A stretch of 64,000 nt of DNA. Origin: Eubacteriales bacterium mix99 (GTDB lineage Bacteria; Bacillota; Clostridia; Caldicoprobacterales; DTU083). The notes under the pieces were generated by a model. It was not told the origin of the DNA, did no database searches, and was given only the letters and a program-made list of their open reading frames with translations. Positions within the stretch are counted from its first letter, which is position 1. Each line of letters starts with the position of its first letter. The stretch is taken from NCBI GenBank assembly GCA_038396605.1, contig CP121690.1, forward strand, positions 2,264,500 through 2,328,499. Reading direction: 5' to 3'. The position numbers and the translations under genes are program-made. Positions 23,466 to 28,000 of the stretch are shown in pieces.

Positions 23466-24197
23466 ATGAACCCGAACAGGAAGGTTCTGATTCATTACCT
23501 GTATCACAGTGGTTTTACGGTGGAGTACGGGGATTATTTTCTGGTATTTGATTATTACCGGCAGTTTTCCGCTGCACCGGATATCCGGCATGAAATCGCG
23601 GCGCATAAGCGGCCGCTGGTCTTTGTCAGTCACAGCCATCCGGATCATTACAATCCGATTATATTTGAATGGAAGGACGAAAGCCCCGATCTGCGATACA
23701 TTTTGAGCGGGGAGATCAGCAGGCGGGGCGGAGAAGACCGGAAGCGGTGCATCTTCATGAATCCCTGCGAAAGCACCGAAGTGGGTGGAGTTACCATATC
23801 CACTTATGGCTCCACGGATCTCGGCGTTTCATTTTTGGTGGAGGTCAACGGCCTTCGGATCTTTCATGCAGGGGACTTGAACTGGTGGTGCTGGGCGGAG
23901 GAGTCCACGGCGGAGGAGCTCCGGGAAGAGGAAGAGGCGTTCAAGAGGGAAGTTTCCCGGCTGGAAGGGGGAAAAATGGATATCCTGTTTTTTCCGGTGG
24001 ATCCCAGACTGGGAGAGTACTATTGGCTGGGCGGGAGCTATATGATGGAGAAATTTCATCCCGGTCTGTTTGTTCCCATGCATTTTGCGGACCATCCGGA
24101 GATTACCCGCCGGTTTGCGGAAAAAATGAAGGGAACCGGGGGAAGGATAGCAGAAATCACCCATCCCGGGCAGACCTTTGAATACCGGATTCCCTGA
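23466..24197 (+). CDS. Metallo-beta-lactamase-fold hydrolase (UlaG-like)
   Basis: 243-aa metal-dependent hydrolase of the metallo-beta-lactamase superfamily. The metal-binding motif HSHPDH is at residues 56-61, an early HSGFTVEYGDYFLVFDYY gives the usual first beta strands, FHAGDLNWWCW carries the next His and Asp, and VPMHFADHPE the last. This arrangement is like UlaG and related small proteins of unknown substrate. GGGAGG precedes the ATG at 23466, so I use it and not the open frame starting at 23373. It is divergent from the L,D-transpeptidase gene. No operon partner is evident; the substrate is unknown. Confidence 0.83.
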   Translation: MNPNRKVLIHYLYHSGFTVEYGDYFLVFDYYRQFSAAPDIRHEIAAHKRPLVFVSHSHPDHYNPIIFEWKDESPDLRYILSGEISRRGGEDRKRCIFMNPCESTEVGGVTISTYGSTDLGVSFLVEVNGLRIFHAGDLNWWCWAEESTAEELREEEEAFKREVSRLEGGKMDILFFPVDPRLGEYYWLGGSYMMEKFHPGLFVPMHFADHPEITRRFAEKMKGTGGRIAEITHPGQTFEYRIP

Positions 24198-24259
24198 GGG
24201 GATGAACAGCTGCCGTAAAGTACAATGGGGGAATTGAAGTTATCAGGAAAAAAATTCAT

Positions 24260-24287
24260 TTGACTCCTGTTGAAAAATCAGTATAAT
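24260..24287 (+). promoter_or_regulatory. Promoter of the structured RNA
   Basis: TTGACT (24260-24265), a 16-base spacer and TATAAT (24282-24287) form a strong sigma-A promoter. It points into a stretch with no convincing coding sequence. Transcription is expected to start near 24294. Confidence 0.65.
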
Positions 24288-24293
24288 GGAATC

Positions 24294-24570
24294 GTAAGGC
24301 AAAGGAACTTCTGGGATATTCGCATGGTTTCTATTTTGAACCTACGCATTGTGAAAGGGAGTTCAATATGGATATTTGGATATCAGGCCCACAATCTGAT
24401 TGATCCGGTTTGATTGAGCCGGTATGGGAAGATAAAAGGTATCCTGCGGACACCCACCTATCAGGAGATAGGTGTCAAAATTGAAACGACGGTATCTCGG
24501 ATATCTTATACGCCAAACTTGTTTCTTGTAATATCAAATCAGGGGATGCCTGGAGGCATTCCCCCTTTTT
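24294..24570 (+). ncRNA. Structured noncoding RNA, about 280 nt, family not certain
   Basis: A promoter and an intrinsic terminator bound a transcript without a supported reading frame. CTGGGATA (24311-24318) can pair fully, with two G-U pairs, with TATCTCGG (24493-24500), closing a multi-branched domain of about 190 nt. Inside are TTGAAC/GTTCAA (24336-24341 with 24361-24366), a CCGG-centred hairpin near 24401-24423 enclosed by CCCA/TGGG, and CACCTATC-AGGA-GATAGGTG near 24455-24474. This multi-stem shape in a clostridial genome suggests a known class such as the raiA-motif RNA, or less likely 6S RNA, but I cannot verify either from memory. No downstream gene is obviously controlled; the terminator argues for an independent RNA. 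Confidence 0.6.
24542..24570 (+). terminator. Terminator of the structured RNA
   Basis: GGGGATGCC and GGCATTCCCC pair around a TGGA loop with one bulged base, directly followed by five T (24566-24570). Confidence 0.75.
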
Positions 24571-24964
24571 GTACCACAGGTTCTCAGTTCATTTTACGAT
24601 TCTCTATCCTAGTCATTCTGCCTGTCATCGAATGGAATCTGATAATTGGAAGCATTTTCTCCCAGCTGGTCATTGTCGAAGGCAGGACGCGGGTACGTGT
24701 TGTCTGCCCTGTCTTTATTCTCTTTGTTTTTTTCTCTTTTATCCTTTGGCATACGGAATCTCCTTTTTTTACTGTAGTGGATTTATATTATCCATAATTC
24801 TCACAGTTATCCATTCACGAAAACTTTTCTTTTCCAATTTGCCTGATTTTCTTCTTTTATAGCGGATGATACCGCTATTTCCATTAAGAAAAACGCCAAT
24901 GACAACCTATATCTAGCCAAAATTATATGCTGGATACACATGTCGTAAAGCGACGTAAAGTGGA
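24571..24964. other. AT-rich stretch without recognised features
   Basis: Between the RNA terminator and the glycosidase promoter the sequence is pyrimidine-rich and then AT-rich. Open frames here are short, low-complexity and lack ribosome binding sites. I see no RNA gene, repeat or mobile element remnant. Confidence 0.4.
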
Positions 24965-24993
24965 TTGACAGTCTGAATCGTGCATGATAGTAT
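24965..24993 (+). promoter_or_regulatory. Promoter of the GH38-like glycosidase gene
   Basis: TTGACA (24965-24970), 17 bases and TAGTAT (24988-24993). About 95 bases of AT-rich leader follow, with a run of TATTAT/TATATTA elements before the AAAGGAGAG ribosome binding site. Confidence 0.5.
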
Positions 24994-25092
24994 TTTCATC
25001 GTAAAATGGTATCGATTTTTAATTATTATATCACGGTAATATATTATTATATCAAAATATAATATTGTTATATTAAAGGAGAGTGAAAAATT

Positions 25093-28000
25093 TTGAAAAA
25101 GTCTTCGTCTGTTTGTGAACCGAATCCGGTGGAGATCATCCGGGTCAAACCAACCCCGGTGATATGGAAGACGGGAATGCAGGCAACCAAAATGACGGTC
25201 CGGAACAGCGGGTCGCCATTTTCCGCATGGGTGCGGGTTTCCCTGAAGAATCAGCCGTCCTGTATTGTGCCGGCTGGAAGGATTGCTTCGGGCAGCAGCG
25301 TGGTAACGGTGCCGGTAACCGATACCCATGAAATGTTGAATCCCGGAGAAACGATCTCCCTGAGGCTGGAACTGTTCGATGAGGAATCCTGCAGCGGCGG
25401 TGCAAAGGCGGTCTATGGGACAGACAAATGGGAGCGCAGCCGCCACTGGGAGTTTTATCTGTCACAGGAAATGCATACGGATCTTGGGTACACCATGTAT
25501 CCGGAGGATCTGAAAGATACCTATGCCAAATATCTGGATACGGTAAAGGAATACATGAAAAACTCCGATGAGCGTGCGGAGGATGTACAGAAATACAAAT
25601 ATGCCATAGAATCCGGCTATATGATGGGCGAAGCCTATATGATAAAACGAAATGCGGATCAGATCCGGGAGATTACGGATTGGATCCGGGACGGCCGTAT
25701 GGTCGTAGGCGCCGGGCAGTTCAATTTTACCCTGGAGAATATGTCCACAGAAGGTACGGCGCGGGCGGCTTATTATACCAATCGATTCCTGGTGGATAAA
25801 CTTGGAATTCAGCCGGGAACCACCCAGAGGATGTTTGATAATCCAGCTTTCAGCAAAAGCTATGTGGATGCTGCAGTGCAGGCAGGCATCCTGTATGGGA
25901 TTCATTCCATGAACCCCGACCGTTCCCCGTATCACAAGAAAAAGCTGTATGATCTCTTTTATATGGAAGGAATGGATCCTGCCCATAAATTTCTGGTTTT
26001 CAATGGCAAATCCTACAGTGATAATCGCGGCTTCGGCGGATCCCACTGGGATATCCGCGGCAGCGTCCGGGATGCTGAAAGAAATCTGCAGCAAATAATG
26101 GATACCCTGGAAAGCCGCACCGGAAGGATGCGGTATCCCTATGACAAGTTTCCGTTGCCGCTGGTACCCTATGCTGACAACAGGGAACCCATGGAAGAAC
26201 AGATCCTCCTCGCCAATCAGCTCAATAAAAAATGGGATGACGCCGGATATGCCTATCCAAAAATAACCGTGGCTTTCCCGGAGCAGTTCTTTAAGGATGT
26301 TGTGGCCGAGTACGGGGATTTCATTCCCACGGAATCGGGAACCGAGGAGAACTGGTGGAATGATGGCTGGGCAACAACGGCTTTCGAGTCCGGCATCAGC
26401 AAGACCGCGGGAAATCGGATTCCGGTTGCGGAGACTGCGGCATCCTTTGCATCCATGTACACAGGCAGGAAGTATCCCTACATGAAGATATATGAAGCCG
26501 TGGAGCGGAATCTGATCTATAACGAACATACCTGGGGCTGTCAGGAATACAACAAGAGCAATCCGCAGTATGACAGGCAGTTCGAATGGAAGCGCGGCCA
26601 TGCGTTCAGCGCAAAGGTTTTGGCTGAAGAGATATTGGGGGCTTCCCTCAAGGCCCTGGCATCGGACGTGGCCACAGAGGGCAAGGCGATTTATGTCTAT
26701 AACCCGCTTAACTGGACAAGAAATGATGTTGTTGCCCTTTCCGATCTGTCGGATCTGCCTCCCCGATTTGAGATCAAAGATGGGGACACATCCGTGTCCT
26801 ACCGGATACAGGATGGTGTCCTGACCTTTGTTGCCGCCGGTGTTCCGGCCATGGGATACAAAATCTTTCGGGTTGTGGAGACGGCGGCAGCACCGGATTT
26901 CAAACAAAAAGCAATAACCGGAAGCAATTTTCTGGAGAATGATGCGTTCAGGGTGACCTTTGCGGAGGACGGGACTGTTTCAAGTATTCTTGACAAAAGG
27001 AATGGAAACCGGGAAATGGTGGAGAATACTCCTTCTGTCCGGTTTAACCAGTATCAATATTATGATGATTTTGGGATTCCTTTCTCCAATATGGGAGCGG
27101 ATTTCGGCCCGGATAAATGGAAACGCCATTCGCCCGGGAAAGAATCCGGTCATCTTGAGGTGACTGCATCCGCAATCGGTGTTGCAGCCCGGCTGAAAAC
27201 TTCCACCTTCCGTGCAGGATCAATTGTTCAGACGGTTACTCTGTACAATGATATTCCAAGAATCGACATTGTGAACGAGGTGGAAAAGGAATCCCTGCCC
27301 GATCTCAAATCAAAAGAGGAAGCTTTTTATACCTTCCCCTTCCAGACGGGAAAGGACTATGAGATCCGCTATGACCTTCCTGTCGGAAATGCGGCGGAGG
27401 GGGAACAGATTTACGGCACCTGCACGGACTGGTATACCGCCAATAAATGGGTCAGCGTAAAGGACAAAAAGGATCATTACACTATGGTCCTGGCAATTCC
27501 GAACACCTCCCTTCTGCAGTTCGGCGAAAGAAGAACCGGAAAATGGTCCTTTGATTACAAATCGTCCGGACCGATTCTCTACAGTTATGTCATGAACAAT
27601 ATGTGGCAGACAAACTTTCAGGGCGATCAGCCCGGCTATACCAGATTCTGTTACTCCGTTTCTGCCAATGAGGACTCCGGAACAGGGGAGAGCGCACGGT
27701 TTGGCTGGGAGATCAGCAATCCGCTGCAGGCGACTGTGATTGCAGAGGCACAGACAGGAAAAAGCGCTGATTCGGGCAGCCTGATTTCGATTGACAAGAG
27801 GAATATTCAGGTCAGTACGATAAAAGCGTCGGAAGCCAATTCGGACGGAATGATTCTTCGCTTTGCCGAAATAGAGGGAAAGCATTCCGAAAATGTCTCC
27901 GTTTCGTTTCCATTCCGCGTATCCTCCGTGACGGAAACGGATATTATTGAAAACGACAAACAGCTGGTTTCAACGGATCGCACCTTTTCCTTCGGACTTC

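Follow-up and report, generated by a model that had tools for sequence, protein, structure and literature searches.

Identification of a 6S RNA gene

The RNA encoded in the gap under study is, almost certainly, a 6S RNA gene of the Bacillus subtilis 6S-1 kind, that is, a presumed regulator of the housekeeping RNA polymerase holoenzyme with pRNA release. 6S RNA is widespread in bacteria and acts as an open-promoter mimic that sequesters RNA polymerase. When the whole window (the entire 64,000-nt stretch of DNA that was analysed) was scanned with all of the 4227 families in Rfam, a single match passed the gathering thresholds. This match is 6S/SsrS RNA (RF00013), at 24305-24507 on the plus strand; it scores 71 bits against a gathering threshold of 46.4, has an E value of 5.2e-12 for the whole window, and is full-length, covering model positions 1-187 of 187. 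The Rfam search proposed in the first-pass annotation thus placed its second guess, 6S RNA, above threshold, and not its leading guess, the raiA motif. The moderate score, together with an enlarged apical arm, was counted against the assignment to the 6S-1 type.

Other contents of the gap were also considered. In a permissive scan of the locus to E = 10, the other Rfam families, SOX2OT and P31 among them, gave only weak, sub-threshold matches that are not credible. A mechanically called open reading frame (24414-24797) covers part of the 3' half of the 6S RNA; a coding function was rejected, as the aligned orthologs show insertions and deletions and keep base pairs instead. A phage origin was likewise rejected, none of the phage records being similar. 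The content of the gap is settled as a recognised global transcription regulator above Rfam's own threshold, and no new RNA class is involved; the locus is an ordinary, well-conserved member of its family.

Conserved fold and covariation

A consensus fold was computed with RNAalifold on 13 A-type orthologs (the longer of two 6S types, described below) of the same order, and it was examined further in a class-wide alignment of 30 sequences. Besides the two helices P1 and P2, the consensus has an apical arm and a central bubble whose 3' side forms a hairpin. The elements are as follows:

24305-24507, plus strand: 6S/SsrS RNA (RF00013), long A-type copy
24310-24322, plus strand: closing stem P1, 5' strand, pairing with 24490-24501
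24327-24339, plus strand: helix P2, 5' strand, adjoining the central bubble and pairing with 24475-24487
24340-24356, plus strand: central bubble, 5' side (open -10-like region), unpaired in the consensus of the 13 orthologs
24357-24364, plus strand: base of the apical stem, 5' strand, pairing with 24448-24455 (99.0% paired)
24381-24434, plus strand: distal portion of the apical arm, comprising two more helices and a long terminal segment (consensus fold and alignment)
24456-24473, plus strand: hairpin formed by the 3' side of the central bubble, with the sequence ACCTATC...GATAGGT (consensus fold and covariation)
24475-24487, plus strand: helix P2, 3' strand, pairing with 24327-24339
24490-24501, plus strand: closing stem P1, 3' strand, pairing with 24310-24322

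The covariance analysis of homologs, which had also been proposed, supports this fold. In the 13-sequence alignment, 99.8% of the pair cells are standard and 18 cells are changed on both sides, a level reached in none of 500 shuffles. In the 30-sequence alignment, 97.6% of the pair cells are kept, a percentage that favours the structure because the structure came from 13 of these 30 sequences; the two-sided changes seen in the other 17 sequences are independent of it. Such changes occur at 23 of the 45 pairs (again 0 of 500 shuffles reach this level) and affect 107 cells, compared with 23 in the shuffles. Once the pairing partners are slid by 1-3 columns, pairing drops to 36-52%. The covariation score is 0.331, compared with 0.196 for shuffled alignments and 0.035-0.119 for the slid structures. 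Within the same 30 sequences, P1 has 98.6% of its cells paired and two-sided changes at 7 of 12 pairs, and P2 has 97.2% paired and two-sided changes at 5 of 12. The distal apical arm contains a 13-nt stretch that is missing from most orthologs.

On the other hand, the folding energy of the single window sequence is unexceptional (z = -1.55, with 13 of 200 shuffles equally stable); the evidence for a real RNA consists of the covariance-model match and the covariation across relatives. An eight-pair stem predicted earlier at 24311-24318/24493-24500 is correct and lies within the 12-pair P1 helix. The other sequence features of the first-pass annotation are also present, but a rod with two arms and a central bubble describes the molecule better than a multi-branched fold. 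In general, the RNA is a rod with a closing stem, a large central bubble and an apical stem, supported by covariation.

Gene layout and transcription signals

The coding genes leave positions 24198-25092 between them, as the claim of a gene-free gap had implied. Upstream lies the gene of an MBL-fold protein (ending at 24197), and downstream lies an open reading frame for a GH38-type glycosidase (starting at 25093). The gap carries the transcription signals of a dedicated gene:

24260-24287, plus strand: sigma-A type promoter of the 6S gene (TTGACT, 16 nt, TATAAT), with 11 of 12 consensus matches, kept in orthologs
24542-24570, plus strand: intrinsic terminator, a 9-bp stem (stem-loop 24542-24563) followed by CC and five T

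Both the strong promoter and the separate terminator of the first-pass annotation were thus recovered, and its size of about 280 nt agrees with the approximately 277 nt of a transcript that would run from about 24294 to the T tract. In all 13 A-type orthologs of the order, TATAAT lies 16 nt past a TTGACN (n = 12) or TTGAAC (n = 1) hexamer, and a downstream hairpin is found near a T run. The promoter and the 3' end thus serve the 6S gene itself and are shared by its relatives; together with the RF00013 match and the covariation, these support the view of a dedicated, independently transcribed noncoding RNA. The upstream MBL protein has related proteins, and in six family members, the source genome included, the A-type 6S gene has a homologous gene on its upstream side. 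When synteny was followed by means of this protein, no 6S RNA was within reach in the scanned loci L003, L005 and L006.

Predicted pRNA template and proposed mechanism

In B. subtilis, the 6S-1 pRNA is 5'-GUUCGGUCAAAACUA (PMC12005410); it starts at nt 40, and a hairpin forms in the 3' side of the bubble (PMC8876501). By aligning the window RNA with B. subtilis 6S-1, a pRNA template was predicted:

24331-24345, minus strand: predicted template of a pRNA 5'-GUAGGUUCAAAAUAG, with the putative +1 at C24345

The predicted start of the pRNA, C24345, is position 41 of the Rfam match, compared with nt 40 in B. subtilis, and the aligned GUAGGUUCAAAAUAG and GUUCGGUCAAAACUA are identical at 9 of 15 positions. 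Verified and predicted pRNAs carry GG at positions 4/5 or 5/6, AA at 9/10, and a conserved adenine just upstream of the start (PMC8414754). GUAGGUUCAAAAUAG has GG at 4/5 as well as AA at 9/10. The motif UUUUGAACCUAC is invariant in 30 of 30 A-type relatives. It is followed (at 24346 in the window) by G in each of the nine A-type copies from the source family and by A in the 21 from other families. Judged from the sequence, this G departs slightly from the adenine reported as conserved beside the pRNA start; with the adenine replaced, the start could lie a base or two from C24345.

By analogy with the 6S family, polymerase binding, growth-phase regulation, and pRNA synthesis and its start site may be envisaged as follows. 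The housekeeping promoter would make a primary 6S transcript of approximately 277 nt, starting at about 24294, which is probably trimmed to the rod of approximately 200 nt. The rod would mimic a melted promoter and bind the RNA polymerase holoenzyme containing the housekeeping sigma factor. When growth slows, the holoenzyme would be held by the 6S RNA, and many promoters would consequently be blocked. Once nucleotides are available again, the polymerase would read the bubble as a template from about C24345 and make a short pRNA. Finally, this synthesis would open helix P2, collapse the bubble and free the enzyme.

Two 6S paralogs in the order

A second, shorter and diverged 6S RNA is present at a separate site of the same genome (C1:2132289-2132461, corresponding to L043:4001-4173; 56.4 bits), with tRNA-Gln(CTG) and tRNA-Glu(CTC) genes about 180 nt downstream. 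The 6S sequences of the order form two groups, A and B, and the branch between them has a support of 1.000. A model of the A group, built from these same A sequences, gives 181-211 bits to A copies and at most 98 to B copies. In the B type, the bubble has diverged to UUUAACCCACAG; the upstream region differs from that of the A type and holds no uniform housekeeping promoter. The same two tRNA genes lie close downstream on the same strand in most B loci of the order, and 22 of 23 B loci share homologous genes on the upstream side. An AT-rich near-palindrome (TTATATTANTATAnA-like) is conserved upstream of many B-type 6S genes (for example, in L049, L061 and L062), at the expected -10 site.

The 6S model matches in 83 of the 99 genomes searched. 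The A type occurs in nine of 13 genomes of the source family (f1) and in four of six of the sister family f3. With the A-group model it was not found in f2 and f4, absences that are provisional because some of the genomes are drafts. It is seemingly missing also from G004, G005, G007 and G010, where assembly gaps are possible; of all these relatives, those in f2 and f4 included, most keep only B. A-like sequences with the GAACCTAC motif are widespread across the class, which identifies A as the mainstream clostridial type.

It is possible, though we hold it to be somewhat less than an even chance, that the two RNAs are an old, functionally divided pair with distinct pRNAs and conditions, and that the B-only lineages have lost the mainstream A. 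With its different bubble and pRNA, its TTATATTANTATAnA-like upstream element and its fixed tRNA-Gln/tRNA-Glu site, the B type would differ in the conditions of its expression and in its releasing pRNA. This long-kept pair is a point of modest interest: two lineages with distinct bubbles, promoters and neighbours provide natural pairs in which to study what makes some Firmicutes retain a second 6S RNA.

Alternative readings of the locus

The raiA motif had been the leading guess of the first-pass annotation, and the organism does possess a raiA RNA, of similar size. However, the raiA model (RF03072, threshold 101.3 bits) gives nothing at the locus up to E = 10, the 6S model covers the locus over its full length, and the raiA RNA of the genome sits elsewhere, at 162.6 bits. 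Since RF03072 finds a clear raiA RNA at that other site, the model works for this organism and does not fit the 6S locus; the probability that the window RNA is a raiA RNA is practically nil.

The presence of two 6S copies, and of four members of the same family with only the B type, might suggest that the window copy is a decayed or silent second gene and that the copy at C1:2132289-2132461 is the active one. This is very unlikely, as the window copy outscores the B copy in Rfam (71 versus 56.4 bits), keeps the conserved pairs, the promoter (11 of 12 matches) and the terminator, and belongs to a type found across the class. It is less likely still that a 6S-like RNA here binds the core polymerase or another holoenzyme rather than the housekeeping one. 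Binding to core polymerase is known for Ms1 of Actinobacteria (PMC9130861), and sequence alone cannot reveal binding specificity; however, Rfam assigns the window RNA to 6S, and its pRNA template region and 3'-bubble hairpin match those of B. subtilis 6S-1, whose binding partner is the sigma-A holoenzyme. The locus is thus best read as an A-type 6S RNA gene.

Comparison with known 6S systems

Like B. subtilis 6S-1 (bsrA), the window 6S RNA is a rod of approximately 200 nt with a central bubble, a 3'-bubble hairpin and a predicted pRNA start at about nt 40; unlike 6S-1, it has an enlarged apical arm. The 3'-bubble hairpin has also been described for the 6S RNA of lactic acid bacteria. The gene rarA, which lies near 6S-1 in those bacteria as well as in B. 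subtilis, is not among the tested neighbours of the window gene (MBL-fold and GH38-type). A raiA RNA (RF03072, 162.6 bits) is located at C1:1787174-1787512 (L104:1501-1839) of the same genome; it is similar in length to the 6S RNA but has no sequence or structure match at the 6S locus. Two 6S copies are known in several Firmicutes, including B. subtilis (6S-1/6S-2), Clostridium acetobutylicum, Thermoanaerobacter tengcongensis and others (PMC8414754). Similarly, the present genome holds two paralogs at separate sites, but unlike in those sets, its second copy has the diverged bubble UUUAACCCACAG and is sited before tRNA-Gln and tRNA-Glu genes.
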